DNA from: Vulcanimicrobiota bacterium
GTDB taxonomy: Bacteria > Vulcanimicrobiota > Vulcanimicrobiia > Vulcanimicrobiales > Vulcanimicrobiaceae
Reading direction: 5' to 3'
Assembly: GCA_019236975.1 (NCBI GenBank)
Contig: JAFAHZ010000121.1
Coordinates: 1 to 51,814, forward strand
Length of the DNA stretch: 51,814 nt
This document shows, piece after piece, positions 14,109-45,636 of the stretch. The position numbers were made by a program, and so were the translations under genes. A model generated the notes under the pieces. The model worked only from the letters and a program-made list of their open reading frames with translations. It was not told where the DNA came from and did not search any database. How positions within the stretch are numbered: position 1 is the stretch's first letter; each line of letters opens with the position of its first letter.

Positions 14109-14115
14109 CAAGAGA

Positions 14116-15513: not shown

Positions 15514-15516
15514 CCG

Positions 15517-17049
15517 ATGCAAACCACGTCCCGTCCCGCCGTCGATCCGCAACAGATTCTGCGCGATTTGCCGCAGACCGGGGGCGTCGTTCCGATGTAT
15601 GTCGACGGACGCTGGAAACTCGCCGCCGACGGCGGAACGCGCGATCTCGTCAATCCCGCCACGGGCGAAAAAATCGCGACCGTCGCCGAAGGCGCGCAGC
15701 GCGACGCGGAAGAGGCCATTCGGGCGGCGCGCAGGGCCTTCGACGAGGGACCGTGGGGATCGATATCGGCAGCCGAGCGGGCCGCGCTGTTGCTCAAGCT
15801 CGCAGATCGCATCGACGACTGCCGCGAGGAATTCACGCGCATCGACACGCTCAACAACGGCAAGCCGCTGCGCGAAGCCGAGTACGACGCTATCGACGCC
15901 GCCAACTGCTTCCGGTACTACGCGGGCTTGGCGACCAAACCGCACGGCCAAACGTTCGATGTTCCGGCGCCGTCGCAAACCTTCACGGTGCGCGAGGCCA
16001 TCGGCGTCTGCGGACAGATCGTTCCTTGGAACTATCCGCTGTTGATGGCCGTTTGGAAACTCGCGCCGGCGCTAGCGGCTGGTAACGTTTGCGTGCTCAA
16101 GCCCGCCGAGCTGACGCCGCTGTCGACCCTGCGCTTGGCATCACTGTTTGAGGAACTCGATTTTCCGGCCGGCGTCGTCAACATCGTCACCGGCGCCGGG
16201 GCGACGGTGGGCCACGCGATTGCGGCCAGCAACCTGGTCGATAAAGTCGCGTTTACCGGAGGCACCAAGACCGGGCGCAGCATCATGCAAGCCGCGACCG
16301 GCAACCTCAAGAAGATCTCGCTCGAGCTGGGCGGCAAATCGCCGAACGTCGTCTTCGCCGATGCCGATTTCGACACGGCGGTGGACTATGCGTTATTCGG
16401 TATCTTTGCGAACTCCGGGCAAGTGTGCTCGGCCGGCTCGCGGTTGATTTTGGAGCGCTCGCTGCACGACACGTTCGTCGGCAAGCTCGTCGAACGCGCG
16501 AAGAAGATCCGCGTCGGCGACGGCTTCGATCCATCGACCGAGATGGGACCGATCATCTCTCCCATGCATCGCGAGCGCGTCGAAGACTACATTGAAATCG
16601 GCCGCAAAGAAGGCGCGAAAGTACTCTGCGGCGGGGAACGCCTCGGCGGGTCGCTTGCCAACGGCAACTTCATCGCGCCGACGATCTTCGACGCAACCAA
16701 TCCTGAAATGCGCATCGTCCAAGAGGAAATCTTCGGGCCGGTACTCGCCATTCAAACGTTTGAAGACGAAGCCGATGCGATTCGTTTGGCGAACGACACG
16801 GTGTACGGGTTGGCCGGCGCCGTATTCACGCAAGACATCGGCAAAGCGCATCGCGTCATCCGCAAGCTGCGTGCGGGCATCACCTGGATCAACACGTACC
16901 ATCCGACCTACAACGAAGCACCGTGGGGCGGGTACAAACAATCGGGCATCGGCCGCGAACTCGGTACCTACGGGTACGATGCCTACACCGAAGTCAAGCA
17001 GATCAACGTCAACCTCGACGTCGCTCCCTCCGGATGGTTTAGCGAATAG
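15517..17049 (+). CDS. Aldehyde dehydrogenase, aminobutyraldehyde/betaine-aldehyde type
   Basis: The product is 510 aa. It has the ALDH superfamily fold with general base Glu270 (SLELGGKSPNVVF), nucleophile Cys304 (NSGQVCSAGSR), the NAD loop PWNYPLLMAVWKLAPALAAGN and the C-terminal PWGGYKQSGIGRELG motif of the betaine/aminobutyraldehyde group. Expected reaction: 4-aminobutanal plus NAD+ to GABA; it may also take succinate semialdehyde, since no separate SSADH is present. The ATG follows the patA stop by 3 nt with GGAG upstream, so it is co-translated with patA. The exact substrate is inferred from context. Confidence 0.88.
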   Translation: MQTTSRPAVDPQQILRDLPQTGGVVPMYVDGRWKLAADGGTRDLVNPATGEKIATVAEGAQRDAEEAIRAARRAFDEGPWGSISAAERAALLLKLADRIDDCREEFTRIDTLNNGKPLREAEYDAIDAANCFRYYAGLATKPHGQTFDVPAPSQTFTVREAIGVCGQIVPWNYPLLMAVWKLAPALAAGNVCVLKPAELTPLSTLRLASLFEELDFPAGVVNIVTGAGATVGHAIAASNLVDKVAFTGGTKTGRSIMQAATGNLKKISLELGGKSPNVVFADADFDTAVDYALFGIFANSGQVCSAGSRLILERSLHDTFVGKLVERAKKIRVGDGFDPSTEMGPIISPMHRERVEDYIEIGRKEGAKVLCGGERLGGSLANGNFIAPTIFDATNPEMRIVQEEIFGPVLAIQTFEDEADAIRLANDTVYGLAGAVFTQDIGKAHRVIRKLRAGITWINTYHPTYNEAPWGGYKQSGIGRELGTYGYDAYTEVKQINVNLDVAPSGWFSE

Positions 17050-22704: not shown

Positions 22705-23363
22705 TCGCCTTCCGGCTGATCGCGTCGATTTATCCGACGGTCAGCGTTTACGATCGTATCGTCGACACGAAGCATTTCACGCAACTATTGGAAATCGAAG
22801 CGCTCACCAATCCTCGAATTCGTGAGGAAGCCGGCGATTTTCGCAAAGTGCGGCCCGAAGACGCGGTGAGCGGCCCGGGGACTACGCCTATCATGGCATC
22901 GTTTGCGTACACCGGCGACAGCCGCTTTTCCGACGGCAGCTACGGCGTGTACTACGCGGCGCGCGACGAGGCGACGGCACTGGCCGAAACGATCTACCAC
23001 CGCACCACGTTTCTGCGCGCGACGGCAGAGCCCAGCATCGATGTGGACGAGCGCATGTATCGATCGCAGATTGCCGGAACGTTTGACGATATACGCGATC
23101 GTTCGCCGCGCTCGAAACTCTACGATCCCGACGATTACTCGAGCTCGCAGCGTTACGCCGCCCGGCTCTACGCCGCCAACCGTCTCGACGGCATTCTCTA
23201 CCGCAGCGTCCGCAGGCCCGAAGGCGAATGCGTAGCCGCGTTCCGGCCGCGCTGCGTCACGAAGTGCAAGATGCACAAGTACCTGCGCCTGCGCTGGGAC
23301 GGCACCTCGATCGTCAGCGTCGCGGTACTGACGAATTTGTCACCCGCAGCACCGTCGCGATGA
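22701..23363 (+). CDS. RES-domain toxin (NAD+-degrading family)
   Basis: The product is 220 aa. The RES fold signatures are present: RLIASIYP at the start, FSDGSYGVYYAARDEATALAET in the middle and SQRYAARLYAANRLDGILYRSVR followed by ECVAAFRP near the end, supplying the conserved Arg, Tyr, Glu and Ser positions. Characterised RES toxins such as MbcT and Res break down NAD+. It is coupled to the antitoxin by a 4-nt ATGA overlap. The last 50 nt overlap the 3' end of selA on the other strand, so toxin transcription would run into the selA message. Confidence 0.9.
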   Translation: MIAFRLIASIYPTVSVYDRIVDTKHFTQLLEIEALTNPRIREEAGDFRKVRPEDAVSGPGTTPIMASFAYTGDSRFSDGSYGVYYAARDEATALAETIYHRTTFLRATAEPSIDVDERMYRSQIAGTFDDIRDRSPRSKLYDPDDYSSSQRYAARLYAANRLDGILYRSVRRPEGECVAAFRPRCVTKCKMHKYLRLRWDGTSIVSVAVLTNLSPAAPSR

Positions 23364-24660
23364 CGTAAGCGTCCTCTTCGGGAGCGATCGTCCGCAAATC
23401 GAGCATCACGCGGCCCTTCTCGATGCGGGCCACGACGGCGGGATTCTCACGGCGCAAGGCCGCGGCGACCCCATCCGCCTCCGAGACCTCCAGCGCTACC
23501 GCCAGCGAGGCGATCTGTGCTTGCGGCAGCGAACCGCCGCCGACGTACGCCATCGATTCCACGAGCGATGCGGCGGCGATCGCGTCGACGTATGCGGCAC
23601 CGCGCGCGCGCAGATCGTCGAGCGTCGCCGCAAGCATACGAAAGATCGGAATGCGGTCGCGCGACGTGCGCTCGAGATACAAGTGCAGCGTTGCCGCGAG
23701 GGCGGCGATCGTCGTTTTGTCGACGCGCAGCGCGCGCAGTAACGGGTTGGAGCGAAGCGGCGCAACGAAATGCGCTTTGCCGGCGATAATTCCCGCTTGC
23801 GGTCCGCCGAGCAGCTTATCGCCCGAGAACGTCACCAGATCCATGCCGTCGGCGATGGCTTCCTGCACCGTGCGCTCGTGCGGCAAGCCGTACTCTGCGA
23901 GATCGACGAGCGCGCCGCTCCCGAGGTCCTCGACGACCGGAACGCCGGCGCTGCGGCCTAGGCGAACTAACTCTTCCGGTGCGACGTCGCTGGTAAAACC
24001 TTCGATACGATAGTTGGAGGGATGCGTGCGCAGCAGCAGCGCGGTGCGCGGCGATAGGGCGCGTTCGTAGTCGGCGGTATAGACGCGATTGGTGGATCCG
24101 ACTTCAATGAGGATCGACCCGCTGCGTGCGATCACGTCGGGAATGCGAAATCCGCCGCCGATCTCCACGAGCTGATTGCGTGCGACGATGGTTTCGCGGC
24201 CGCGCGCGTAGGTATCGAGAATCAAGAGCACGGCCGCGGCGCAGTTGTTGACGACGATGGCGTCCTGCGCGCCGGTCGCATCGCGAAGCGCTTCCGTGAC
24301 GCGCGAGTAGCGCGAGCCGCGTTCGCCGGCACTCAAGTCGAACTCGAGATTCGAGTACCCTCGGGCGATGCGGTCGATCGCGGTCAGCGCTTCAACCGCG
24401 AGCGGGGAGCGCCCGAGGTTGGTGTGCACGACGATACCCGTCGCGTTGATTGCCGGGACGAGCTCCCGCAAGCGCGCGTCGTTGAGCTGCGCGACGACGT
24501 CGGCTACGACGGATTCGTACGATCGCTCGCTGCCCGAAGCGCGCGCGCGATCGAGCACCTGCTCGATCGCGCGTTTGACGGTTTCTCTTCCGAAAGCGAC
24601 GCCGTATTCGGCGACCGCGGGTTCCTCCAGCAGCCGATGCACCGCCGGGAGGCCGCGCAT
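23314..24660 (-). CDS. selA: L-seryl-tRNA(Sec) selenium transferase SelA
   Basis: The product is 448 aa, the usual SelA length. It converts Ser-tRNA(Sec) to Sec-tRNA(Sec) with selenophosphate in the cytoplasm. Family motifs are clear: INATGIVVHTNLGRSPL (71-87), YSNLEFDLSAGERGSRY (102-118), VVNNCAAAVLL, VEDLGSGAL and the PLP lysine in TFSGDKLLGGPQAG (K282). The ATG is the first Met after the trxA stop and overlaps it (TAATG), so the two are coupled. With selB at the left of the window this shows a bacterial selenocysteine system; selD and selC are not present here. The 3' end overlaps the RES toxin gene. Confidence 0.95.
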   Translation of the reverse strand: MRGLPAVHRLLEEPAVAEYGVAFGRETVKRAIEQVLDRARASGSERSYESVVADVVAQLNDARLRELVPAINATGIVVHTNLGRSPLAVEALTAIDRIARGYSNLEFDLSAGERGSRYSRVTEALRDATGAQDAIVVNNCAAAVLLILDTYARGRETIVARNQLVEIGGGFRIPDVIARSGSILIEVGSTNRVYTADYERALSPRTALLLRTHPSNYRIEGFTSDVAPEELVRLGRSAGVPVVEDLGSGALVDLAEYGLPHERTVQEAIADGMDLVTFSGDKLLGGPQAGIIAGKAHFVAPLRSNPLLRALRVDKTTIAALAATLHLYLERTSRDRIPIFRMLAATLDDLRARGAAYVDAIAAASLVESMAYVGGGSLPQAQIASLAVALEVSEADGVAAALRRENPAVVARIEKGRVMLDLRTIAPEEDAYVIATVLRVTNSSVPRR

Positions 24661-24986
24661 TAGGCCACGTGTTTGCCGAGCATCGTCGTGATGACGTTCT
24701 CGGGAACGTAGCCGACGATGCGATCGACCGGCTGCCCGCCTTTGAACAGAATCAAACACGGAATTCCCGAGACTTGATACTGTCCGGCAAGACTCGGATT
24801 GTCGTCGGTGTTTAATTTGACGAACTTCGCTTTTCCGCTGTTGGCGTTGGCAACTTTCTCCACCACCGGTCCGAGCATCTTACAAGGGCCGCACCAAGGC
24901 GCCCAAAAATCCACCAGCACCGGCTGGCTGCTCTGTAAGACTTCGCTTTCGAAGTTGGTCATCGTGACGTCTGATAATGCGCTCAT
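24660..24986 (-). CDS. trxA: Thioredoxin
   Basis: The product is 108 aa with no signal peptide, so it is cytoplasmic. Active site WCGPC at residues 31-35 within VLVDFWAPWCGPCK; cis-Pro76 in SGIPCL. It reduces protein disulphides using thioredoxin reductase. An unusual third Cys (C77) sits directly after the cis-Pro, where E. coli has Thr. GGAGG lies about 15 nt before the ATG, further away than usual. The stop shares bases with the selA start (TAATG). Upstream, 86 nt separate it from the last lipoprotein gene of the array; a small TCGCC-GCA-GGCGA stem lies in that gap without a T-tract. Confidence 0.95.
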   Translation of the reverse strand: MSALSDVTMTNFESEVLQSSQPVLVDFWAPWCGPCKMLGPVVEKVANANSGKAKFVKLNTDDNPSLAGQYQVSGIPCLILFKGGQPVDRIVGYVPENVITTMLGKHVA

Positions 24987-25072: not shown

Positions 25073-26998
25073 CTAGATGTCGCCGGCGGGAACCAGTCTC
25101 ACCGAAACCGGCGCAGACGCTGCTTTGAGCGATCCGTCCGGTATCCCGGCCGTCCCGGCGAGGGCCCCCGCCACCGTTGCGCTCCAATAGACGCTCAGCG
25201 TTTTGCTGCCGGCGTTAGCGACGTATAACGTACCCTGTCCGAATACGGAGCTCAGTGCGGCATCGAAGACGACCCCCTCGGGCGTCGTTGCAGCGGTCAA
25301 GTCCGTTCCGGGCACGCCGATCGTGCTCGCCGAAACCGGTCCCGGATACACGGTGACTCCGCCGCCGCTGCCGGCGATGAAGAGATCGCCGGCCGCATCC
25401 TCGGCAATGGCGTCGGGCGTGGCGGCGGCGGGTGTCAGCGTTCCCGTCGACGCGACACCCAACGTGCCTCCGATCGCAGACGTAAGTTGAGCGGCGCTAA
25501 ATGCCGCCACGCTCGCTCCCGCAACGACGAAGAGGTTTCCGGAAGGATCGACGATGAGCGACGATGGCACGAGCACGCTATAGGGCGACGACGACAGATA
25601 GCCCTTTCGCGTCCAGCCGGTCCCCGATCCGGTGAAAACGTCGACGTGGCCGGACGCCTCCGCCACCCAGAGATTGCCGGCGGCGTCGAAAGCCATCGAC
25701 GTCGGGTGCGTTCCGCCGGGACTCAGCGCGAGCGTCGCCGCGGGCGCACCTTGCGCTGCCGTGAGGCAGCCGCTCGTCTGAGCGCTGCTATATATCCCGA
25801 CGGTATTCGAGCCTTCCTCGGCGACGAATAAGTCGCCGCTGGAATCGAAAAGCAATCCGGTCGGCGTAATCGTGCCGGACGTCGCAATCGTCATCGATTG
25901 CGTTTTCGTTTTGCTCGTTCCGCCTACAGCGGCGGTGACGTTTGCCGCCGTATAACAGTTGACCGTCCGCGTGCCGCTATTGGCGATGAAGAGATTCGGC
26001 GGCGATGCGTTGTCGAACGCGACACCGAGGTCGGCATTACCGCCGGTCAAATTTGCGGTTGCGGCAACCGCCGTATTTCCCGCTAGCGCTTTCGCTACGA
26101 CCGCGGGCGCGTAGATGCTCTCGGCGTTCCCGTCGCTTACTACCACGGCGCCCGGTAACGCGGTCGTGACTTTTGGCGCCGTTTGGCAGCCCGGCGTGCA
26201 CGCCGCGACACCGGCGGGCATGACGGCGGTCAGTGTCACCGTCGCGTTCTCGGAAAGCGTCGCGGCCTTCGGTTTCAGATCGAAGCCCGCGTTCGTAATG
26301 GCGGAGGCCGTGAAGTTTGCGGGGTTAATCGCAAGCGTGTACGACGGCGTGCCGGGACCGACGATCACGTTGCCGTCGGCGTCCTTCATCGTTACGGTAA
26401 ACGGAAACGGCGTCGCGGCACCGAGCACCGTCAGTCCGCCGGCACCGCTGACGCTGTAGGTGTTTCCATCGGTACTGGCAGCGGGCGAGATGACGATCGA
26501 AGCCGGGACGCCCGTCAGCGTCGTGCTCATCGTCTGATTACCGGGCGCCACTTCCTTAGTGACGACGTTTTCCGACAAGCGCCGGCTCGACGAGTCGAAT
26601 GCGGTAATGGTGAACTTGTCGTCGGCAGCCGGAACGGTCCACTGCGTCGAGCAGATGTAGCCCGATCCGGAAACCGGCGAACAGTTGGAGCTCAACGTTA
26701 GCGTAACGTTGAGCGTGAAACCTGCCGGCGGCGCAACGCCGTTGACGGTCGTCAGGTTGAAGGTGACTGAGTTGGTCGACGGCGAGACGTATCGCGCGTG
26801 GCGATGATGCCGCTTGTGCTTGGGGAATCGAACCGCTACGGTCAAACGCGCTCGGGTATATTTCGAGCCTGCGGCGAGCCCCGAATCCGCACCTCCGCCG
26901 AAGGCACCCGAGGAAGGCACCACACTGCCGCCGCTGCAGCCGGCAAGGACCGCGAGCCCAAACGCAATCGCCGCTACGGCGCTACGTATGTTTCGCAT
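25073..26998 (-). CDS. Array lipoprotein E: family N-terminal domain fused to an NHL-like propeller
   Basis: The product is 641 aa from the ATG at 26998, inside the 3' end of the preceding gene (17-nt overlap). Lipobox LAGCSGG. Residues about 35-150 match the N-terminal part of its neighbours: basic stretch (RFPKHKRHHRHARYV), SVTFNLTTVNGVAPPAGF, GYICSTQWTVPAADDKFTITAFD and LSENVV. Instead of the family's C-terminal core it has an Ig-like segment (VTMKDADGNVIVG) and then about 330 residues of propeller blades (GLLFDSSGDLFVAEEGSNTVGIY, MAFDAAGNLWVAEASGHVDVF). It is the last lipoprotein before trxA. The function is unknown. Confidence 0.8.
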   Translation of the reverse strand: MRNIRSAVAAIAFGLAVLAGCSGGSVVPSSGAFGGGADSGLAAGSKYTRARLTVAVRFPKHKRHHRHARYVSPSTNSVTFNLTTVNGVAPPAGFTLNVTLTLSSNCSPVSGSGYICSTQWTVPAADDKFTITAFDSSSRRLSENVVTKEVAPGNQTMSTTLTGVPASIVISPAASTDGNTYSVSGAGGLTVLGAATPFPFTVTMKDADGNVIVGPGTPSYTLAINPANFTASAITNAGFDLKPKAATLSENATVTLTAVMPAGVAACTPGCQTAPKVTTALPGAVVVSDGNAESIYAPAVVAKALAGNTAVAATANLTGGNADLGVAFDNASPPNLFIANSGTRTVNCYTAANVTAAVGGTSKTKTQSMTIATSGTITPTGLLFDSSGDLFVAEEGSNTVGIYSSAQTSGCLTAAQGAPAATLALSPGGTHPTSMAFDAAGNLWVAEASGHVDVFTGSGTGWTRKGYLSSSPYSVLVPSSLIVDPSGNLFVVAGASVAAFSAAQLTSAIGGTLGVASTGTLTPAAATPDAIAEDAAGDLFIAGSGGGVTVYPGPVSASTIGVPGTDLTAATTPEGVVFDAALSSVFGQGTLYVANAGSKTLSVYWSATVAGALAGTAGIPDGSLKAASAPVSVRLVPAGDI

Positions 26999-28145
26999 TG
27001 ATGATCCACGTAAGTCCGCCTTCGGCAAGGCCGACGTAGTACGTTGCCGTAGCAGCGGGTGAGTTGCTGTCGGTCGCGGTGCACGTTACGGAGCTGCTCG
27101 GCCCGAAGGTCGTGCCGCCGACGCCGCCGTCAAAGTTGAGGTAAGCCCCGTTGTTCCCATAAACGGTGCCGGCGCTTCCGCTAAACGTCGTTCCCGTGCC
27201 GCTGCCGTCCTGTCCGGTGACCGGAGAGGTGATCTGCGGGTACGTCGCCCCGGTCACACCGTTGGCATAGTTGGTTGCCGGAACCGGCGACGGCAACGGC
27301 AGCGAAGGCACGGAGTTGAGATACGTCACGTGCGGGTTGTTACACGCAATCGTTATCGTATCGAGGGCGCCGGCCGCCGTTAAATAGATCGGCACGTTGG
27401 GGCTGGAGGCGCCGCTGCCGCCGCCCGACGCGGGAATAATCGTTTCGTTATCTGCGTCGAGTGCGACCAGCGTCAACGTGTCGCCGAGGGCGACGCCGGC
27501 ATCGTCCAGGAGCGGATCGTAGCAGCTCGTCGCGCACGAGTACTGCTGCGTCTGTTGCGAATAGACCGGTCTAGCCGCGCCGTTGGCAAATCCGTCTCCA
27601 CTTTGCCATTTGAGCGCCGCCACGATCGGGTTCAAACTGAAGGTTCCGTTCGCGACACCGCCCACGGGAACCGCAAACTGAGCCCAGGCTTCCGAGAGTC
27701 CTTTTCCGCCGCTGCAACCCGTCGTCGTACCGCTGCAGGCAACGATCTGATACGTATCGGTCGCTGCCGGGGCGGCTACGGTAATACTGCACGCGTAGCC
27801 GCCGTCGGGTGATTGCGTCGCGCAATGCGGGCTCGTCTGCGGTAACAAGACAACGTTGTATGGATTGGAAGGGCTGGTGGCGACGCCTTGGACCGCAATG
27901 AGATTGAAATCGATTTCGGTCGTATCTGCCGGTAAGAACGCCGGCTTGACGCGTTTTTTCAGGAGCGCGCGAGCGATCCACTGCGAGGCTCTCTTTGACG
28001 GCACGCGAACGACCGCGTGGAGATATCCGAGCCCGTGCGCGGGGCGAACGCCGTACGTCGCCGGGGCAGTTCCAGCGCTGCTGCACGCGGCAAGCAGCGC
28101 CGACGTCATCGCGAGCGAGAGCGCGGCTGCGATGCGAGGTCTCAC
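26982..28145 (-). CDS. Array lipoprotein D (unrecognised family)
   Basis: The product is 387 aa from the GTG at 28145, preferred over an upstream TTG because GGAG lies 7 nt before it and GTGA overlaps the stop of gene C. Lipobox LLAACSS. Domains in order: a basic linker (VPSKRASQWIARALLKKRVK), FLPADTTEIDFNLIAVQG, GYACSITVAAPAATDTYQIV, LSEAW, SCYDPLLDDAGVALGDTLTL, PNVPIYL, VTYLNSVPSLP, ITSPVTGQDGSGTGTTFSG, YGNNGAYLNFDGG and ATYYVGLAEGGLTW. The same order occurs in genes A-C. All-beta composition and paired Cys suggest an exported disulphide-bonded domain. I do not recognise the family. Confidence 0.8.
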   Translation of the reverse strand: MRPRIAAALSLAMTSALLAACSSAGTAPATYGVRPAHGLGYLHAVVRVPSKRASQWIARALLKKRVKPAFLPADTTEIDFNLIAVQGVATSPSNPYNVVLLPQTSPHCATQSPDGGYACSITVAAPAATDTYQIVACSGTTTGCSGGKGLSEAWAQFAVPVGGVANGTFSLNPIVAALKWQSGDGFANGAARPVYSQQTQQYSCATSCYDPLLDDAGVALGDTLTLVALDADNETIIPASGGGSGASSPNVPIYLTAAGALDTITIACNNPHVTYLNSVPSLPLPSPVPATNYANGVTGATYPQITSPVTGQDGSGTGTTFSGSAGTVYGNNGAYLNFDGGVGGTTFGPSSSVTCTATDSNSPAATATYYVGLAEGGLTWIINAKHT

Positions 28146-29344
28146 CGGCGCGCTCCGTTCGAACCCCAACCGATCGAGCCGAGCTCCAAGCCGAGGTAGT
28201 ACGTTGCGGAATTCCCCTGCAAATCCGTAGCCGTGCAGCCGGCTGCAGGACCTAACCCGTAACCGCTGCCGGTGCCGTCAAAGTTGATGGCAACGCCGTT
28301 ATTACCATAAATTTTGCCGGAAATCGCGTTGCCGCCGAAGTCGGTCCCCCCGCCGCTCGTTCCGTCGGAGGTCGTCACCGGAGAGTTGAAGCTGGGCGGA
28401 CTGCCGTTTCCAGGCCCGCTCCACGAACCGCCGGCACCCGTATTACTGAATCCGTTGGCAAAATCTATGGCCTTGAGCGCAGCCGCCGGGATAGGCGACA
28501 AATTGTAGCCGTACGTGTTTAGGAACTCGACCGCCCCGTCGCTGCAGGTAACGGTTACGGTGTCGGCGCTGCCGTTCTGCTGCAAGTAAATTGGAATGTA
28601 GGGCGCACCGCTAACGGGCGTGTTACCCGCGGCGGGTACGATGACGTTGCCGTCGCTGTCGAGCAGCTGGAGGGCGGCAAGATCGGCCGTGACGCCGCCA
28701 AAGGTGTTGAGGAGCGGATCGTAGCAGCCGCCCGGCGCCGTGCAGACGTACTTGCCGTGCACGACGGTCGGCGTCCCAGCGCCATTCGTATAGCCCTCGC
28801 CGCTCGTCCACATCAGGCCGTTGGTCGCGGCCACAACCGGATCGAGCGTAAACGAGGTCGGCGACGCAGCCGTCGCCGTGACGTCTATGACCACGCTGGA
28901 TTCCGACAGCGTTTTCGACGCGCTATCGGTCGTCTGAATCGCCCACTCGTCTGCACCGACCGGTGCCGGGACGAGCGTCTGACACACATACCCGGTCGGA
29001 CCGACGAGCGGCTCCGGCGTGCACGTCGACGTTAAGAAAGAGAAGTCGAATCCGCTCGGCGGCGCCTCGCCGTTGACGCCGGTCAGCACGAAGCTCACCG
29101 TCGCGGCGCTCGAAGGAAGATAGTGCGCGCGTCTTTTCGTGTGCTTCGACGGCACGTGCAATCGGATGTGCATGAGCGCGACCTTACCGTTCCACCGTCT
29201 GTGCACGGTCGACGGTACGCTCGCGGCCGGCGCACCCGTGCCGCCACCCGAACACGCTGCCAATACAGCACTCGCGAGCGCAAGTGCTGCGTAGCACTCT
29301 GCCCGTTGGCGGCGGCGCCGAAGCGCCGTCGCCAACGAGAACAT
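28142..29344 (-). CDS. Array lipoprotein C (unrecognised family)
   Basis: The product is 400 aa. ATG at 29344 with no visible Shine-Dalgarno site, 21 nt after gene B. Lipobox LAACSGG (Cys about residue 31) after an Arg-rich n-region. It shows the family blocks: WNGKVALMHIRLHVPSKHTK, YLPSSAATVSFVLTGVNGEAPP, GYVCQTLVPAPVGADEWAIQ, LSESSVV, GCYDPLLNTFGG, YIPIYL, SPVTTSDGTSGGGTDFGG, YGNNGVAINFDG and ATYYLGLELGSIGWG. The N-terminal block is closest to that of gene E, the C-terminal core to D. The stop TGA overlaps the GTG of gene D. Confidence 0.8.
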   Translation of the reverse strand: MFSLATALRRRRQRAECYAALALASAVLAACSGGGTGAPAASVPSTVHRRWNGKVALMHIRLHVPSKHTKRRAHYLPSSAATVSFVLTGVNGEAPPSGFDFSFLTSTCTPEPLVGPTGYVCQTLVPAPVGADEWAIQTTDSASKTLSESSVVIDVTATAASPTSFTLDPVVAATNGLMWTSGEGYTNGAGTPTVVHGKYVCTAPGGCYDPLLNTFGGVTADLAALQLLDSDGNVIVPAAGNTPVSGAPYIPIYLQQNGSADTVTVTCSDGAVEFLNTYGYNLSPIPAAALKAIDFANGFSNTGAGGSWSGPGNGSPPSFNSPVTTSDGTSGGGTDFGGNAISGKIYGNNGVAINFDGTGSGYGLGPAAGCTATDLQGNSATYYLGLELGSIGWGSNGARR

Positions 29345-29365
29345 AACGATCGAAACGATTTCGGC

Positions 29366-30718
29366 CTACCGCGTCCGCCCAGCGGGGTGACGCCGATGCG
29401 CCAAGTTGACGCCCCACGTGAGCGAGCCTTGAGCCAGCCCCGCGTAATACGTGGCGCTGGAGATCGTGCCGTCTATCCCATTACCGAGCGTGGCGGCACA
29501 GCTTTGCGTAGAACCTAGGGTGTAGGTTATACCGTCGTTGTTTCCGCCGCCGTCGTAGTTGATGTACTGGCCGTTGTTGCCGTAGATCGTTTCCGTGTTT
29601 CCGTTGAAGTCGGTTCCGCCATTGAGCGTGCCGTCAAAACCGTTTGCCGGCGACGTAAACAGCGGATAGTAGCTGATGCCGGGACCGACGAACTGCATGG
29701 TGCCGCCCGAACCGCCGATGGATCCGTTGGCGAGATCCGGCTGAGGATACTCCGACAGATATTGCGCCTGCAGGGTCGCAGCAGTCAGCGGCGGGGAGCC
29801 GTCCGGCGGACTCGACTGCAGCCATTGGAGATCGGCATCGCTGCACGACACACCGACTTGCAACGCGTTGCCGCTGCCGTCCACGTAGACCGGGACGTTC
29901 GGCGAGCCGCTGATGGAACCGGCGGCAGCGGCTACGATAATGTCGCCATCCGGATCGAGCACGTTCAGGATGGCGGTGTCGTAGAGGGCGACGCCTTCGC
30001 TGTTGAGGATCGGGTCGTAACACCCGGAGCTCGCGCACGAGTACGTGTTGGTCCCCGTATTGAGCGTCGGCGTATCGCTTCCGTTGTCGAATCCGCTCAC
30101 GGTGCACGACCACGTACCGCCCGATTCCGTGTAACCGCCTCCGCCGTTGCACGTTCCGGCGAACCACTTGAGGCTGCTCGCCACGGGATTGAGGGTAAAG
30201 TTGCCCGCCGTTACGTTGGGGGCCGGCAAGACGCTCAGCGTGACTGCGGACTCCGATAACGTCGTCGGAGTTCCGTCGGATGCAACGATGGTGTACGTAT
30301 CCAACGCCGCAGGCGCCGGCACGGTAACGTTACAGGCGTAGCCTTCGCCGAACGCATTGCAAACGGACGTATCGCTTGTCGAAATCGTGACGCCGAATGG
30401 GTTGGAGGCCGGCGGCGACACGGACTGGCCGTTGACGCTAATCAGCGAAAACGACACCGACGTGACCGATAGGGGCAGGAAATTCGGCCGCTTTCCGTTT
30501 TTTGCGGCCGCGCGCGCGATTGCGTGATTGATACGCTTGCGCTCCTTGCTCGACGGGAACTTGACGTGGATATGCAAGTGGCCGGTCTTACCGGTCCACG
30601 CGAACCTATGCGCCGGATTGGCCGGCGGCGTTAGCGACGATGTGTTGGCGCCGCCCGAACACGCCGCCAGCATGGTGGCGACGAGTATCGAGCCCAGCGT
30701 CCGAGTGTACCGTTTCAT
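29366..30718 (-). CDS. Array lipoprotein B (unrecognised family)
   Basis: The product is 450 aa. ATG at 30718 with GAGGAG about 10 nt upstream. Lipobox LAACSGG. The blocks are WTGKTGHLHIHVKFPSSKER, FLPLSVTSVSFSLISVNGQS, GYACNVTVPAPAALDTYTIV, LSESAVTLSV, FTLNPVASSLKWFAGTC, GCYDPILNSEGVALYDTAIL, PNVPVYV, WLQSSPPDGSPPLTAATL, TSPANGFDGTLNGGTDFNG, YGNNGQYINYDGGGNNDGI and ATYYAGLAQGSLTWGVN. It is closest to gene A: both have a Cys-containing insert (FAGTCGG or FAGTCNG plus a Trp-Cys strand) absent from C and D. Confidence 0.8.
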   Translation of the reverse strand: MKRYTRTLGSILVATMLAACSGGANTSSLTPPANPAHRFAWTGKTGHLHIHVKFPSSKERKRINHAIARAAAKNGKRPNFLPLSVTSVSFSLISVNGQSVSPPASNPFGVTISTSDTSVCNAFGEGYACNVTVPAPAALDTYTIVASDGTPTTLSESAVTLSVLPAPNVTAGNFTLNPVASSLKWFAGTCNGGGGYTESGGTWSCTVSGFDNGSDTPTLNTGTNTYSCASSGCYDPILNSEGVALYDTAILNVLDPDGDIIVAAAAGSISGSPNVPVYVDGSGNALQVGVSCSDADLQWLQSSPPDGSPPLTAATLQAQYLSEYPQPDLANGSIGGSGGTMQFVGPGISYYPLFTSPANGFDGTLNGGTDFNGNTETIYGNNGQYINYDGGGNNDGITYTLGSTQSCAATLGNGIDGTISSATYYAGLAQGSLTWGVNLAHRRHPAGRTR

Positions 30719-30758
30719 GATCGTTATGCTCCTCTAGGCAGCGCTCTCAATGGGGGCA

Positions 30759-31835
30759 TCACCAGCGGCGCACGTTGATCGTGACGCCGTTGACGATGGC
30801 GATTTTGACCTTGACCGTTTTTCCGAGGATGCCGGTGAACGTAGCCGTGCAGTTGCCAAGCTTGGATTGGCCGGCTACCGTGTAGGTGTTTGAGTTGACT
30901 TGCACGACCGTCGCTACATCGGACGTGCAGTTGTCGCTTTCCGTGAAGTTTCCGGTGTAGTTCGGTTGTGAAAGGACGACGTTTAGCGTGTCGGGCGTGC
31001 ACGCGTTACTACCCGAGCTGGGACAGATCGCGACCGACGCGGGATTGGCGCTCACGTTGCCGACGACGGTAATGGTTACCGTCGCGAACTTGCCGGCGCC
31101 GCCGACGAACGTAGCGATGCAGGTGCCGGGCACCGATCCGCCGGCGACTTTGTAGGTCGTGGAGTTGACGGACGTTACGGTTGCGACGTTGGACGAGCAT
31201 CCGTCACTCTCGCCGAAACCGCCGCTGTAGTTACTCTGCGACAGCACGACGGTTTGCGCGTGGGTGCCGCACGACGCGGGACCGCTGCTAGGACAAATCG
31301 TGACCGATCCAGGTGCGGCGTTGACGGTGCCGGGTCCGGGTGTCGGTGTGGGCGTCGGCGTCGGCGAAGCCGACGGCGAAGGTGACGGAGAAACGCTCGG
31401 CGAGGGCGACGGTTTCGGCGTGGTTACCGCGATCGAGAGCGACGCTTTATGCTTATCCGTGTCGCTGAAGACGACGGAGCATTTGCCGCTGCGATCGGGC
31501 GTAACCTTTACCTTGTACGACGGACCTTTGCCGAATGGCGGTCTCAGCGTGGCGATGTGCTTACAATCGCTCAGATCTTCCGAAATTTTTCCTTTATAAC
31601 CGGGGTCGCTAACGTCGACGTCTTGGGCGAACCTGTCACCGACGTTATCGAAGTCGAGACGATCGGGTTTGACTTTGAGCTTCGACGTTCCGGCCACGCC
31701 CGGCGACGTGCGCCCGGCAGCGGTGTCTCCGCCGTTTTGTAGTGGAAGCAATGACCGGTGGCCGTCGCAAGCGACTAAGCCTGCTAGCAGAGCTGCAGTG
31801 GCGAGGCCGATGCACCGGCGGGCGAGTGCAGACAA
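30759..31835 (-). CDS. Lipoprotein with two Cys-rich Ig-like repeats and a Pro/Ser/Thr linker
   Basis: The product is 358 aa with a TTG start (31835) and GAGGG 8 nt upstream. Lipobox VACDG, with Asp after Cys, which in Gram-negatives can mark inner-membrane retention, though the rule may not hold here. Residues about 50-137 form one beta domain; 140-169 are a PSPS/PTPT linker. Two tandem repeats of about 85 residues follow (VTICPSSGPASC...TVVLSQSNYSGGF and VAICPSSGSNAC...NVVLSQPNYTGNF), each with four Cys and a GTCIATF or GNCTATF strand. It sits between array genes A and B with gaps of 18 and 40 nt, so it belongs to the same transcript although it is not a paralogue. Confidence 0.75.
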   Translation of the reverse strand: MSALARRCIGLATAALLAGLVACDGHRSLLPLQNGGDTAAGRTSPGVAGTSKLKVKPDRLDFDNVGDRFAQDVDVSDPGYKGKISEDLSDCKHIATLRPPFGKGPSYKVKVTPDRSGKCSVVFSDTDKHKASLSIAVTTPKPSPSPSVSPSPSPSASPTPTPTPTPGPGTVNAAPGSVTICPSSGPASCGTHAQTVVLSQSNYSGGFGESDGCSSNVATVTSVNSTTYKVAGGSVPGTCIATFVGGAGKFATVTITVVGNVSANPASVAICPSSGSNACTPDTLNVVLSQPNYTGNFTESDNCTSDVATVVQVNSNTYTVAGQSKLGNCTATFTGILGKTVKVKIAIVNGVTINVRRW

Positions 31836-31853
31836 AACCGAACCCTCGAATCC

Positions 31854-33179
31854 CTACCGGCGCCTATGCGCGCGCTTGGCGTTGGTACCCCAACCGATGG
31901 TCCCTTGCGCGAGTCCGATGTAATACGACGTTCCCGCAATGTTCGAGCCGATGTACGCGTTGCAGTAATCGAGCGAGGCCAGATTGTACGGGCCGCCGCC
32001 GTTGCCGCCGCCGTCGTAGTTTAGGTACCGGCCGTCGTTACCCCAGACTTGGTATTGTGCGCCGTTGAAGTCGGTTCCGACGTCGCTGGTGGAACCATAG
32101 TCCTCACCCGTGACCGGCGATGTAAATCCCGCGTACGTCGTAGAGTCGACGAGCCCCGGCCCGAGGTATTGTACGATTCCCGCGGCGCTGTGCGCTCCGT
32201 TCGCAAGATCCGCAGTCGGCTCGGAAGCAGCCTTCAAGGTGGAATAGCTCAAAGGCGGCGCACCGTCCGGCGGCGATGCCTGCAGCCAAGCGACGTCCGG
32301 ATCTTGGCAGATGACGTGCAGGCCGATGCCGCCGCCCGGCGACGGATCGGTACCGGTTTGAAGGTAAATCGGAACGTTCGGAGACCCGCTGATGGTCGTG
32401 CCGTTAGCGCCGGGCGTGATGATGTTGTTGTCGTTATCGAGGACGTTTAGCGTCACCGAGTCTGCAACGGCGGTACCCTCGTCGTTGAGCAGCGGGTCGT
32501 AGCATCCGCCGTCGGCCGGGGTGGGGCACGTGTATGCCGAGCCGTTCCAAACCGGCGTTCCCGTACCGTTATCGAATCCGCCGCCGGTACACTTCCAGGC
32601 TCCCGAAACGTACGTGTAGCCGCCGCACGTCCCCGCGAAAAATCTCAGGCTGGCGGCGACCGGGTTCAGCGTAAAATAGCCGGTCGTGGTCGTGTCGGGG
32701 AGGACGTTGACCGACACCATCGACTCCGAAAGAACCCAGCCGCTCGTCGTATCCTTCGCGACGATCGTCCAGGTGTCGTCGGCGGCGGGAGCCGGCTCGT
32801 CGGCCGAACAGAGAAATCCGCTGCCGTCGGGGTTGCTGTTGCAGCTCGGGTTCCCGCTGGTAACGCTGGTAGCGATCGTGAAATCGAAGGACGTCGGCGT
32901 TCCGGGGCTGCCCGTCGGCACGCCTTCGACGTCGACGAGCGAAAACGTGACGTGCGTCACGGTTGCCGGCAGGTAGTGAGCCTTCTTGCCGTTGCGCAAC
33001 GCGGAAGCGTGCCTGGGCACCGCAAACCGCATTCGGACGTGACCCATCTTCCCGTTCCAGGCGAACTTATGTGCGGGCGAGGTGGAGGGAGTCAGGCTGC
33101 CGGTGCTTGTGCCGCCCGAACAGGCGGAAACTATGGCCGACGCCAGCAGCGCGGCGAGCGCGCGCGGATACCCCTTCAT
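31854..33179 (-). CDS. Array lipoprotein A (unrecognised family), first gene of the array
   Basis: The product is 441 aa from the ATG at 33179, chosen because GGAGAAGG is 4-7 nt upstream and the signal peptide starts there (the frame itself opens at 33239). Lipobox VSACSGG. It contains every family block: WNGKMGHVRMRFAVPRH, YLPATVTHVTFSLVDVEG, DEPAPAADDTWTIVAKDTTS, LSESMVSVNV, FTLNPVAASLRFFAGTCGG, GGCYDPLLNDEGTAVADSVTL, PNVPIYLQTG, WLQASPPDGAPPLSYSTL, TSPVTGEDYGSTSDVGTDFNG, WGNDGRYLNYDGGGNGGG and TSYYIGLAQGTIGWGTN. It begins a seven-gene minus-strand run to trxA and selA, so the promoter should lie in 33180-33268. Confidence 0.8.
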   Translation of the reverse strand: MKGYPRALAALLASAIVSACSGGTSTGSLTPSTSPAHKFAWNGKMGHVRMRFAVPRHASALRNGKKAHYLPATVTHVTFSLVDVEGVPTGSPGTPTSFDFTIATSVTSGNPSCNSNPDGSGFLCSADEPAPAADDTWTIVAKDTTSGWVLSESMVSVNVLPDTTTTGYFTLNPVAASLRFFAGTCGGYTYVSGAWKCTGGGFDNGTGTPVWNGSAYTCPTPADGGCYDPLLNDEGTAVADSVTLNVLDNDNNIITPGANGTTISGSPNVPIYLQTGTDPSPGGGIGLHVICQDPDVAWLQASPPDGAPPLSYSTLKAASEPTADLANGAHSAAGIVQYLGPGLVDSTTYAGFTSPVTGEDYGSTSDVGTDFNGAQYQVWGNDGRYLNYDGGGNGGGPYNLASLDYCNAYIGSNIAGTSYYIGLAQGTIGWGTNAKRAHRRR

Positions 33180-33268
33180 GAGCCTTCTCCCTCGTTGACG
33201 GCGCGTCGTTGGCGACTGGCCTTTCCTAAAAGAGCTCACGCGTCAAGGCCAGCGCACCGGCGGTCGAA

Positions 33269-35212
33269 ATGCCCAGGAGCCGAAGAGCTCCCAAAAACGA
33301 GAAATTCTCGCCTCACAAAGCAAGCCGAATCCCGGTCGTCGGTCGTTATCCAAGCAAGGAGAGACCCCCTTCCAAGGAGGAGCGAATTTCAATCGCCAGC
33401 TTACTCGTTAAAACCAGCCGCTTCGCGCTCGGGGTAGCCCGCACTCGCTTTGTTTTTGGGTTAATCGCTCGTGCGGGCTACCCGCTCGCTGTCTGCATTG
33501 CGCTTGCTATGTTAGCGGCGTGCAGCTCGTTGGATGGCAACCAATCGATGCCTCCGGATGCTGCACCGAGGTTTCGCCCTGCGGTAACCTCGAGCGCCGT
33601 ACGAATCGCGTCGCTGCGCGTGTCGGTCGGAACCCCTCTGCTGCCGTTAGGCCAGGTCACGAGCTTCCAGGTCATCGCGAAAGACGCCGCCGGACGCGTC
33701 ATAACAGGAACCTACGATCGCCCGATCGTCCTGCGCGCGAAAGGCTTGCAGCTTTCCGCGATGCGGGTCGCCACTTCGGACCAAGCATCCGCTCTCAACG
33801 CGTCGTGGATTCCGTCGCACGTCGAAAGCAGTGGGACGATCGCGGCGAACGCGGACGGTCACACTGCGAACGCGCGAGTCACAGCCGGCACGGGCTTCGT
33901 GTACTACGACGCCGGAAACGATCCGAAAACCGACGTCACCGGCTTTCAAATAGTCGCCTCGGCCGGCGGTCGTCTCTTCTACGGTACGCTGGGGCCACAG
34001 GTTTGCAGCGGCGTCATTTGCTCGTCGGCGCAAGGCGCTATCGGCGAGCTCGATCCGCGCACGGGGAAGGCGCGTCAGATCGCATTACCGTCCGAAGTGC
34101 TCGGCTTGCTCCCGACGTCGGACGGCGCGTTGTGGATTGCGGGCGGCGCGGGACATTTACTCTACCGCATGTCGCCGGGCCCGCTCGCCACGCCGGCGGC
34201 GATCGTGGTCCCGCCTCCCGCGCACGCGATGTCCTGGGGACCGCGTTTGCTGGCACAAGATGCCGGAGGCAACGTGTGGTTCGGCGATGCGGACGGGCAC
34301 CGGTTGCTGTCGATTCCGCTCGCCGGACCATATCAGGAATCTTCCATCAGCGTTTTTGCGCCGCCGAACGGTCCGAGCGGGACGCCCCAGGCACCTCCTT
34401 ACGTGAATGGACTCGCGTACGGCACCGACGGCAACCTGTATTTCGCCGATTACGACAACGGCGTGCTCGATCGCGTGAGTCCGTCGAACGGAAAGACGAC
34501 GCACCAACTGCTGCTGCCGCAGCAAGTCGCGCTCGGCACGAAGATGTCGGCACAACCGCGCTTCCTCGTCTCGACCCCAAGCGGCTTGATGCTCTCGCTC
34601 TTCGGCAGCTCGACCAAGACCTCGGGCGCAGGCGCGATCGACGGCTACGCCTACCGCAGCGCGCTGTCGTTGGTGAAGCTTCCCAGCGTTCCGGCCGGCT
34701 CTATCCCGGACTCGCTTTCCGCTAAGGGGTCGCTCGTATATTACGCGGACGTCTTCACGCACGCACTCGGCGTCCTCGACGTGACGAGTCGAAAATCGCG
34801 ACTCATTCCGACGCAGCCCTTTCTCGCCGTCGACCAACGCGTGTCACCCAACGGCGTAGCCGCCATGGCCGACGGCAGCGCCTGGTTCACGTGCGAAAAT
34901 AACGCCACGCCATTGCAGCCGCTGTGCATCGGGCACACCGTTTACCTTTCGGACTGGAGCCTTTTCCCGGGACCGGCGTTCAACCTCGGCCTCGGTCGCA
35001 CGCAATCGCAAGTCGTCGGCATCATGGAGAGCCCGTCGCAAGACAGCGGGCCGTTTGCCGCGCGCTCGAGCACGCCGAAGATCTGTTCCGTTTCGACCGT
35101 CGCAGACCACAACTTCGTGGTTACGGGGAAAACCGGCGGCCGCTGCACGGTGACCGTTACCGACGCAAAGCGTGCAAAGCGCAAGCTGGACGTGCTCGTC
35201 GTAGCGCCCTGA
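33269..35212 (+). CDS. Propeller-type lipoprotein with an uncertain start
   Basis: The open frame gives 647 aa from the ATG at 33269, but the lipoprotein signal (YPLAVCIALAMLAACSS) only begins around codon 70. No ATG, GTG or TTG occurs in frame between 33269 and the signal. AAGGAGG at 33374-33380 precedes an in-frame ATT at 33386, which could be a rare start. After the lipobox there is a beta-sandwich (SLRVSVGTPLLPLGQVTSFQ), then propeller blades (LPTSDGALWIAGG, LAQDAGGNVWFGDADG, LAYGTDGNLYFADYDNGVLDRV) reminiscent of virginiamycin-B-lyase-like or NHL folds. The last domain is Ig-like (SSTPKICSVS...GGRCTVTVTDAKRAKRKL). It converges on gyrA with 6 nt between stops. Confidence 0.7.
   Translation: MPRSRRAPKNEKFSPHKASRIPVVGRYPSKERPPSKEERISIASLLVKTSRFALGVARTRFVFGLIARAGYPLAVCIALAMLAACSSLDGNQSMPPDAAPRFRPAVTSSAVRIASLRVSVGTPLLPLGQVTSFQVIAKDAAGRVITGTYDRPIVLRAKGLQLSAMRVATSDQASALNASWIPSHVESSGTIAANADGHTANARVTAGTGFVYYDAGNDPKTDVTGFQIVASAGGRLFYGTLGPQVCSGVICSSAQGAIGELDPRTGKARQIALPSEVLGLLPTSDGALWIAGGAGHLLYRMSPGPLATPAAIVVPPPAHAMSWGPRLLAQDAGGNVWFGDADGHRLLSIPLAGPYQESSISVFAPPNGPSGTPQAPPYVNGLAYGTDGNLYFADYDNGVLDRVSPSNGKTTHQLLLPQQVALGTKMSAQPRFLVSTPSGLMLSLFGSSTKTSGAGAIDGYAYRSALSLVKLPSVPAGSIPDSLSAKGSLVYYADVFTHALGVLDVTSRKSRLIPTQPFLAVDQRVSPNGVAAMADGSAWFTCENNATPLQPLCIGHTVYLSDWSLFPGPAFNLGLGRTQSQVVGIMESPSQDSGPFAARSSTPKICSVSTVADHNFVVTGKTGGRCTVTVTDAKRAKRKLDVLVVAP
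33432..33483. repeat. Perfect 13-bp inverted repeat (stem-loop)
   Basis: GGGTAGCCCGCAC (33432-33444) and GTGCGGGCTACCC (33471-33483) are exact inverted copies around a 26-nt T-rich loop. It lies immediately before the codons for the hydrophobic part of the lipoprotein signal. As RNA it would be very stable and could hold back ribosomes or mark an insertion. I saw no second copy in the window. Confidence 0.7.
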
Positions 35213-40832: not shown

Positions 40833-40847
40833 GTGCAAGAGGTGGGC

Positions 40848-42146
40848 ATGGACCACGTTCTAACGCCCTGGGTCGCCCAGGCCGGCCGCAAGGCTCCGGT
40901 CATCGTGCGGGGTGAGGGCTCCTACCTCTATGACGATGCCGGAAACCGGTATCTGGACCTTTCGGCCGGCCTGGTCGCGGTCAACCTCGGCCACGGCCAC
41001 GCCGGCGTCGCATCGGCCATCGGCGAGCAGGCCGCTCGTCTCGGCTACTGCGCGCCCAGCCTCGGAAACGATACGCGCTCGGCATTGGCTCGAGCGATCG
41101 CAGAAATCGGCCCCTGGGCCGAAGGCGCGCGCGTCTTCTTCACGACCGGCGGCGGTGAAGCCAACGAAGATGCGGTGAAGTTCGCGCGCGCGATGAGCGG
41201 ACGGCATAAGATTCTCACCGCGTACCGCTCGTTTCACGGGTCCGCTCCGGGCGCGGGAAGCCTGACCGGCGAGAACCGGCGATGGCCGAACGAGCCGGGG
41301 ATGCCGGGTATCGTCCGCTTTTTTGCGCCGTTTCCGTACCGCAGCCCGTTTCACACGCGCGACGCAAACGAAGAAGTCGATCGCGCGATCGCGCACCTCG
41401 AAGAGATCGTGCGCTACGAAGGCGGCGAACGCATCGCCGCGCTCCTGATCGAACCGGTCATCGGTTCCAACGGCGTCATCGTCTTTCCAGACGGTTATCT
41501 CAAGCGCGTGCGCGAGTTGTGCGACCGTCACGGCATTCTCCTGATTTTCGACGAGGTCATGACGGGATTCGGACGCACGGGCGAAGCGTTCGCTTCGCAG
41601 CGCTTCGGCGTCGCTCCCGATATACTGACCTTTGCAAAGGGCGTGACGTCGGCGTACGTGCCGCTCGGCGGCGTGGCCGTGCGCGAATCGCTCGCCAAAT
41701 TTTTCGACGCCCATCCGCTGCCCAGCGGCCACACGTTCAGCGGTCATCCGGTGGCGGCGGCTGCCGGCCTTGCCGCGATCGAAGCTTATCGCAACGAAGG
41801 GCTGTTTGCGCGAGCACGCGTCGTCGAGGGCTGGCTGCGATCGCGCTTCGACGCGCTGGCCGAGCGGCATCGCATCATCGGGGAGGCGCGAGGCGTCGGC
41901 GCGTTCTTCGGACTCGAGCTGGTCACCGATCGCGATACGCGCGAGCCGCTGGTGGAATGGCAGGGCGGGAAAACGCTGCACTCACTGTTCGGCGATCTGC
42001 TCGCGCGCGGGCTCTACATTTACGGCCGGTACAACGTGATCGTCGTCTCGCCGCCGCTAACGATCGGCGAAGCCGAGCTCGACGAAGCGATGACGATTTT
42101 CGACGAAGCGTTTGCCGAATTCGCCAAGATTCCAAAGGCAGGATAA
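40848..42146 (+). CDS. Class III aminotransferase, beta-alanine/taurine-pyruvate type
   Basis: The product is 432 aa from the ATG at 40848 (AGAGGTG 4-6 nt upstream). PLP-fold motifs: FFTTGGGEANEDAVKFAR, AYRSFHGSAPGAGSLTG, LLIEPVIGSNGVIVFPDGY, FDEVMTGFGRTGEAF and the Schiff-base lysine in LTFAKGVTSAYVPLG (K264). The AKGVTSAY-PLG signature and the SFHGS motif fit the pyruvate-dependent omega-transaminases for beta-alanine or taurine. With the next gene it would turn beta-alanine into malonate semialdehyde and then acetyl-CoA. The substrate is inferred from context. The dehydrogenase ATG is 2 nt after its stop. Confidence 0.85.
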   Translation: MDHVLTPWVAQAGRKAPVIVRGEGSYLYDDAGNRYLDLSAGLVAVNLGHGHAGVASAIGEQAARLGYCAPSLGNDTRSALARAIAEIGPWAEGARVFFTTGGGEANEDAVKFARAMSGRHKILTAYRSFHGSAPGAGSLTGENRRWPNEPGMPGIVRFFAPFPYRSPFHTRDANEEVDRAIAHLEEIVRYEGGERIAALLIEPVIGSNGVIVFPDGYLKRVRELCDRHGILLIFDEVMTGFGRTGEAFASQRFGVAPDILTFAKGVTSAYVPLGGVAVRESLAKFFDAHPLPSGHTFSGHPVAAAAGLAAIEAYRNEGLFARARVVEGWLRSRFDALAERHRIIGEARGVGAFFGLELVTDRDTREPLVEWQGGKTLHSLFGDLLARGLYIYGRYNVIVVSPPLTIGEAELDEAMTIFDEAFAEFAKIPKAG

Positions 42147-42148
42147 TC

Positions 42149-43537
42149 ATGCAGATGGTGGTCACCGATCCGGCAACCGGGCTGGAGCTCGGCAGCGTTG
42201 CCGTCGCGCAGACCGACGACGTAGAACGGGCGGTCGCGGCGGCGAGCGCCGCGTTCGAGAGCTGGTCGGCCGTTCCCGTGGTCGAGCGCGCGCGCATGCT
42301 GTTTCGTTACGCCGACGCGCTCGAGCGCCGGCACGAAGATCTCGCGCGCAGCGTTTCGCGCGAAAATGGAAAGACGATCGCCGACGCGCGCGCCGAAGTG
42401 CGCCGCGGCATCGAAGCCGTCGAGTTTGCCTGCGGTATGCCGTCCCTGATGATGGGCGACGCACTGCCCGACATCGCGCGCGACGTCGATTGCGTTTCGC
42501 TGCGCTTTCCGCTCGGCGTCTGCGCCGGAATCACGCCGTTTAACTTTCCCTCGATGATTCCGCTCTGGATGTTTCCCATCGCCATCGCGGCCGGAAATAC
42601 GTTCGTGCTCAAACCATCGCCGCAAACTCCCCTCACCGCCGACTTGCTGGCGGACGTTTCGCGCGACGCGAAGTTCCCCGACGGCGTCCTGACCGTCGTG
42701 CACGGCGCCGCCGACACCGTCAACGCGCTGATCGATCACCCGGGTATCGCGGCCGTATCGTTCGTCGGCTCCTCGCACGTCGCACGGATCGTCCAAGAGC
42801 GCGCGGTACGCGCCCACAAACGCGTGCAAGCGTTAGGCGGTGCGAAGAATTTTCTGGTCGTGATGCCCGATGGCGTCAAGCAAAGCACGGTCGACGCGAT
42901 TATGAGCTCGGCGTTCGGCGGCGCGGGACAACGCTGCCTTGCCGGATCGGTGGTGGTTGCCGTCGGCGCCGCCGCCGAGAGGCTGCCGCAGATGCTCGTC
43001 GACGCCGCGCGCGGTTTGCGCTTGGGCTGCGGCCTCGACGCCGCTACCGACGTGGGCCCGGTCATCAGTCACGACGCGATCGCGCGCATCGACGGATACG
43101 TCGAGCGGGCTCAAAAGGACGGAGCGACGATGCTGCTGGCGCCCGATCCGGCCGCGCGCGACGCGAAGGGCTCCTTTCTTTCCCCGGTCGTCTTCGATCG
43201 CGTCGATCCGGAAAGCGAGCTGGCCCGCGAAGAAATTTTCGGCCCCGTGCTCGCGATCGTGCGCACCGCAACGCTCGACGAAGCCATCGCGATCGCGAAC
43301 CGGTCGCGTTACGGCAACGCGTCGTCGATCTTCACCGCCGACGGCGGCAGCGCGCGCACGTTCGCCAACCGGATCGAGGTCGGCATGGTCGGCGTCAATG
43401 TCGGCGTCGCCGCACCCATGGCGTTTTTCCCGTTCGGCGGCGTCAAAGAATCGATCTTCGGCGATCTCCGCTGCCACGGAAAGGATGCGGTAGCTTTCTA
43501 CACGCAGCAGCGCGTCGTCATCTCGCGTTGGCCTTAA
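42149..43537 (+). CDS. mmsA: Methylmalonate/malonate-semialdehyde dehydrogenase (CoA-acylating)
   Basis: The product is 462 aa, slightly shorter than typical MmsA (about 490-500). PFNFPSMIPLWMFPIAIAAGN, nucleophile Cys263 in GAGQRCLAGS and FPFGGVKESIFGDLRCHGKDAVAFYTQ are MMSDH-specific. The general-base Glu of ordinary aldehyde dehydrogenases is replaced by Asn in QALGGAKNFLVV, as expected for the CoA-acylating subgroup. It gives acetyl-CoA or propionyl-CoA plus CO2 and NADH from malonate or methylmalonate semialdehyde. It is coupled to the transaminase and its stop overlaps the convergent gntR stop by 3 nt. Confidence 0.9.
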   Translation: MQMVVTDPATGLELGSVAVAQTDDVERAVAAASAAFESWSAVPVVERARMLFRYADALERRHEDLARSVSRENGKTIADARAEVRRGIEAVEFACGMPSLMMGDALPDIARDVDCVSLRFPLGVCAGITPFNFPSMIPLWMFPIAIAAGNTFVLKPSPQTPLTADLLADVSRDAKFPDGVLTVVHGAADTVNALIDHPGIAAVSFVGSSHVARIVQERAVRAHKRVQALGGAKNFLVVMPDGVKQSTVDAIMSSAFGGAGQRCLAGSVVVAVGAAAERLPQMLVDAARGLRLGCGLDAATDVGPVISHDAIARIDGYVERAQKDGATMLLAPDPAARDAKGSFLSPVVFDRVDPESELAREEIFGPVLAIVRTATLDEAIAIANRSRYGNASSIFTADGGSARTFANRIEVGMVGVNVGVAAPMAFFPFGGVKESIFGDLRCHGKDAVAFYTQQRVVISRWP

Positions 43538-45536: not shown

Positions 45537-45557
45537 GCCCCGTGCTCTGCTCCGTCG

Positions 45558-45569
45558 ACAGTCGACAAT
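45558..45569. promoter_or_regulatory. Second GntR operator-like dyad, before the permease-gntR operon
   Basis: ACAGTCGACAAT differs from the 40821 palindrome at two positions and shares its GTCGACAAT core. A second GTCGAC (45554-45559) overlaps it with a 7-bp offset. It lies 21 nt before the permease ATG and about 68 bp before the divergent TPM gene. Confidence 0.6.
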
Positions 45570-45636
45570 CCTAGCCGGAAGGACGAAACTCGCCGGCAGC
45601 CCATAGGTAGAACGCCACGTGAGGAGTTTGACGTCC

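Follow-up and report, generated by a model that had tools for sequence, protein, structure and literature searches.

Genes A to D appear from their sequences to encode a branch, devoid of propellers, of a large lipoprotein family that is expanded within Vulcanimicrobiota. Proteins of this family possess an N-terminal module (N-module) of about 120 residues, which is located after the lipobox and contains a pair of almost invariant Cys as well as an LS motif whose Leu is conserved. The window, that is, the whole stretch of 51,814 nucleotides that was analysed, is the entire contig C211 of a Vulcanimicrobiota (Eremiobacterota) MAG of 3.19 Mb in 336 contigs. The array contains the following genes and domains:

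31854..33239, minus strand: gene A, propeller-less lipoprotein, lipobox VSAC
32643..33038, minus strand: N-module of A (E 7e-28)
31881..32654, minus strand: second domain of A (GCYDPLLN ... YGNDG-type turn ... NYDGG), disulphide-rich
30759..31835, minus strand: gene A2, lipoprotein and recurrent neighbour, not a paralogue of A to E, lipobox LVAC
31422-31670, 31062-31298 and 30792-31028, minus strand: copies of domain 3 in A2, three Ig-like units with a Pro/Ser/Thr linker
29366..30718, minus strand: gene B, propeller-less lipoprotein, lipobox LAAC, N-module 30170-30520, second domain 29405-30178
28142..29344, minus strand: gene C, propeller-less lipoprotein, lipobox LAAC, N-module 28820-29170, second domain 28157-28831
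26982..28169, minus strand: gene D, propeller-less lipoprotein, lipobox LAAC, N-module 27609-27971, second domain 26997-27620
25073..27028, minus strand: gene E, commonest architecture of the family, lipobox LAGC, N-module 26492-26842
about 26168-26512 and about 25109-26011, minus strand: distal parts of E, Ig-like domain 2 and an NHL/SBBP propeller, respectively

The six genes A-A2-B-C-D-E share one strand with gaps of only 18, 40, 21, -28 and -47 nt and are therefore probably co-transcribed. For gene A, the ATG at 33179 is a more likely start than the GTG at 33239. All six products have the start expected of bacterial lipoproteins (Lgt/Lsp substrates), a hydrophobic signal with the lipobox Cys at its end, and in A to E a short, basic linker connects this lipid-bearing Cys to the N-module. 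An earlier note on this DNA had described a tandem array of five lipoproteins; A to E do all encode a lipobox and lie on one strand, but A2 is located between A and B. The number of Cys after the lipid Cys is even throughout (8 in A, B and D, 6 in C and E, 10 in A2), and even numbers are typical of exported, disulphide-bonded domains. The conserved Cys pairs claimed in that note are found as three pairs across A to D, and the additional Cys of A, B and D are likewise paired.

The N-module was searched for with an HMM built from 57 diverse modules. The HMM matches A to E at E values of 6e-22 to 9e-31 and none of the other ORFs tested in the window. It identifies 33 copies in the source genome, 28 in a second species of the genus (G001), and at least one in 99 of the 149 Vulcanimicrobiota genomes; a wider search of 388 related genomes added no genome to these 99 and gave no match beyond the phylum. 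An exported lipoprotein family, as proposed for the array, is supported, but it is not confined to the array. A lipobox precedes the N-module in 132 of 136 distinct ORFs, mostly 25-50 amino acids upstream, compared with 46 of 556 control ORFs, and two of the four exceptions are located at contig ends. This link is position-specific and independent of the HMM, which speaks against composition artefacts as the source of the matches. The N-module occurs once per ORF, none of the 136 having two. L163 (G024:C27:1-16000) contains a row of six near-identical N-module genes, evidently a recent tandem expansion of the family in another genus.

In most N-module relatives, as in E, the N-module is followed by an Ig-like domain and then by a beta-propeller. 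The commonest C-terminal Pfam matches in N-module proteins are the propellers Vgb_lyase, Reg_prop, SGL, NHL and SBBP; a phosphoesterase match is found in three of them, and SMP-30-like and phospholipase C-like domains are also encountered. The propeller of E scores 24.6 bits with NHL (cut-off 20) and 27 bits with SBBP (cut-off 20.5). E and many relatives resemble propeller lipoproteins of the Vgb_lyase, NHL, SGL and SBBP types, whereas A to D give no propeller match and do not belong to that class, and the N-module that precedes the propellers is covered by no Pfam or NCBIfam model. One N-module-positive ORF of the 57-member alignment is matched by models of the [2Fe-2S] xanthine dehydrogenase subunit and is a candidate fusion.

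A, B, C and D align end to end, with 52% amino acid identity between A and B, 39-44% between the remaining pairs, and Smith-Waterman z scores of 47-92 against 100 shuffles. Their paralogy, with the sequence blocks named in the earlier note kept in order, is thereby confirmed. E was said to share only the N-terminal part and is indeed homologous to A to D only over about residues 47-184 (BLASTP E 6e-12 to 4e-14 with A, B and C, and 5e-5 with D; z 6-15), after which it continues into its Ig-like domain and NHL-type propeller. A2 shows no full-length homology to A to E, with z of 4.4 for A and at most 0.9 for the others. At shared four-fold-degenerate third positions (residue kept) 54-66% differ, with nucleotide identity of 50-58%. 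Because of this degree of change at the four-fold positions, the divergence of the array is judged to be old, in agreement with the claim of old duplications and not recent copies. No reading frame of the array is disrupted, the disulphide pattern does not vary and neither do many motif positions, and 39-52% of residues have been retained while synonymous sites are heavily diverged, which points to purifying selection. The array region contains no tandem repeats, just short diverged direct repeats inside conserved blocks, and phase variation via repeats was rejected on this ground.

In the N-module tree, A to D cluster with copies from two other genera, G013 and G047 (support 100/99), and E is placed elsewhere. 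D pairs with the G013 copy in this tree (98/85), a pairing that the full-length tree does not show, and topology tests do not reject a single clade of A to D (p-AU 0.47 and 0.34). An origin of the duplications before the split from the other genera was for these reasons dropped. E was likewise not taken as a close member of the A to D clade, since the tree sets it apart, yet a single clade of A to E is not rejected (p-AU 0.14).

The second domain of A to D is 208-258 amino acids long and is characterised by the motifs GCYDPLLN, PNVPIYL, YGNNG and NYDGG. Across the 149 genomes, the source genome has four copies, G013 and G047 have a single copy each, and G048 has a reduced form; the remaining matches are weak fragments. 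Beyond the source genome it is thus limited to three genera, and it is absent from G001, the other genome of the genus in the set, and from most genera. Several paralogues with GCYDPLLN and YGNNG per genome had been anticipated, which is true of the source genome and not of the other three. The G047 copy is followed by a propeller. The core motif LDxDGxxI aligns with Ig-like domain 2 of the wider family; an hhalign comparison of the two domains scores 33, against a maximum of 18.7 in 60 column shuffles, and reaches 84% probability with a wider set, the link being carried mainly by about 25 columns around this one motif. A search of A to D with the domain-2 HMM (hmmsearch, E 0.05) gave no match. 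Since the similarity is convincing only close to the motif, it is likely, and not more than that, that A to D are an elaborated, propeller-less form of the architecture with Ig-like domain 2. Other propeller-less N-module proteins, also uncharacterised and from Vulcanimicrobiota (G000:C328, L047:9156-10346 and L172:5978-7147), are about 390-430 amino acids long and possess a lipobox, the N-module and domain 2; they differ from A to D in ending in a fused domain 3 and in lacking the GCYDPLLN/YGNNG elaboration.

A to D match no Pfam or PHROG family and no NCBIfam model near its cut-off, and a profile search of PDB sequences with A to D was empty, so that for these four proteins the description as an unrecognised family holds. 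The AlphaFold2 model of B (five sequences) has a mean pLDDT of 34, and that of the E N-module (seven sequences) a mean pLDDT of 51 with seven predicted strands. The low confidence probably stems from the small number of homologues used. With these models Foldseek gave best E values of 0.03-0.05 and nothing at E <= 0.001 for the N-module; its matches to Ig/FnIII, CBM and lectin folds were discarded as not significant on models of low pLDDT. A phage- or plasmid-borne array was rejected, as no N-module relatives were found in viral contigs, no relatives of E in plasmids, and no PHROG matches for A to D or A2. Text searches of the literature found nothing on such lipoproteins in Vulcanimicrobiota.

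A2 is probably part of the same unit as A to D, because A2-type genes immediately precede A-D homologues in two other genera and A2-type domains occur fused to N-module proteins elsewhere. In G047, a homologue of A2 (41% identity, E 3e-18) is located immediately upstream of the A-D homologue, and in G013 a protein with both the N-module and domain 3 is located directly upstream; the more distant genes of the two loci differ. Several N-module proteins end in a fused domain 3 (hhalign 97.5%), with six such ORFs in six genomes. Of the 35 domain-3 ORFs in these genomes that are not fused, 14 have an N-module gene within 1.5 kb, where 0.9 would be expected; the count is biased upwards, as the domain-3 model was drawn largely from loci beside N-module genes. 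Among those of up to 400 amino acids, 11 of 14 adjoin an N-module gene at this distance. In the source genome, 10 of the 12 non-fused domain-3 ORFs do not. Fusion together with conserved adjacency is the usual signature of partner proteins. The residue at +2 from the lipid Cys is Asp in A2 (CDGHRS) and Ser in A to E. Asp at this position is an inner-membrane retention signal in E. coli; the homologues of A2 in G047 and G013 have Gly, so the Asp is not conserved.

The array has selA, gyrA, a RES-Xre toxin-antitoxin pair and a TonB-dependent receptor as neighbours; selA and gyrA are names that we take from the sequence, with no search behind them. The following genes of the window were located:

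3723-5579, minus strand: selB, with the Pfam SelB winged helix
22276-23363, plus strand: Xre/MbcA/ParS-type antitoxin and RES-domain toxin pair, adjoining selA
23314-24759, minus strand: selA-like gene, named from sequence
33269..35212, plus strand: gene G, divergent from A, lipoprotein-like, without N-module

Gene G contains Ig-like domain 2 (E 1.2e-5), followed by a Vgb/SGL-type propeller and, at the C-terminus (34991-35203), domain 3. Domain 3 of gene G is weakly similar to T2SS-T3SS_pil_N PF13629 (E 1.8e-4) and Big_2 PF02368 (E 0.027), below the curated cut-offs; the repeats of A2 are the same domain, but neither A2 nor A to D match Pfam bacterial Ig-like (Big) domains up to E 10. selB and the selA-like gene are separated by 18 kb, and no tRNA genes of any kind were found in the window. 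Two clusters contain class III aminotransferase and aldehyde dehydrogenase genes (12858-17049 and 40833-45929); a PucR-type regulator adjoins one of them, and the other has a GntR regulator and an amino-acid permease next to it.

A to D may be considered lipid-anchored multidomain envelope proteins with a variable distal domain for binding, a reading to which an even chance is given. Its steps are suggested by the architecture and by the diversity of the paralogues. A to D and their relatives would be exported by Sec and then lipidated, with the outer membrane or the periplasm as their final location. The outer membrane is a possible location for the family because the wall of the cultured member of the phylum is Gram-negative and includes an outer membrane covered by LPS (PMC9758169). 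The linker and N-module would act as a stalk for a swappable distal module. In most relatives this would be a propeller and in A to D the YGNNG/NYDGG domain, with domain 3 supplied in trans from A2. This distal module may bind a ligand such as a glycan, a polymer or a partner protein, and the drifted paralogues would then be binders of differing specificity instead of subunits of a single coat. The earlier idea of a ligand-presenting coat or adhesin for the array proteins is compatible with the data.

A broader proposal, put forward tentatively and somewhat doubtful, is that of a lineage-specific modular display system with up to dozens of lipoproteins per genome, one stalk module, exchangeable tips and small domain-3 partner lipoproteins in trans. 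The stalk module would be that found exclusively behind a lipobox and exclusively in Vulcanimicrobiota, its tips would be propellers, domain 3, enzymes or the A-D domain, and A-A2-B-C-D-E would form a two-component recognition cassette.

Three other explanations were considered. A to D could be abundant subunits that assemble with one another into an envelope layer or matrix, in which the aromatic Gly-Asn-Asp-Gly turns serve packing and not binding; similar in size, acidic, rich in Gly, Thr, Ser and Ala and in disulphides, they are encoded together, and A2 weakly resembles part of a model for an anammox S-layer glycoprotein, far below the cut-off (E 0.005), but paralogue identities down to 39% and a core domain present in only four genomes are unlike a conserved coat and make this explanation unlikely. 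A set of anchored enzymes, with a novel or degraded hydrolase or lyase domain in place of the propeller, is still less probable: Vgb_lyase-, SGL- and phosphoesterase-type domains do occur on other N-module proteins, but A to D match no enzyme family, and Gly, Asn, Asp, Cys, Pro, Tyr and Leu make up most of the invariant residues of their second domain, where an invariant His or Ser dyad is absent. The least probable is a relic of old duplications, weakly constrained and sharing no function other than to fill the envelope, which would suit the deep divergence and patchy distribution of the A-D domain but is opposed by the intact frames, the invariant disulphides and motifs, and the apparent purifying selection.

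Vulcanimicrobiota (WPS-2/Eremiobacterota) often reach high abundance in oligotrophic environments, and their cultivation is recent. With 33 proteins in one genome and restriction to the phylum among the 388 genomes searched, the N-module marks a strongly expanded family of envelope proteins and is a candidate new Pfam domain. Relatives that match Vgb-lyase models are probably modular propeller lipoproteins and not antibiotic lyases. The genes A-A2-B-C-D-E provide a defined cluster for asking what Vulcanimicrobiota present at their surface.
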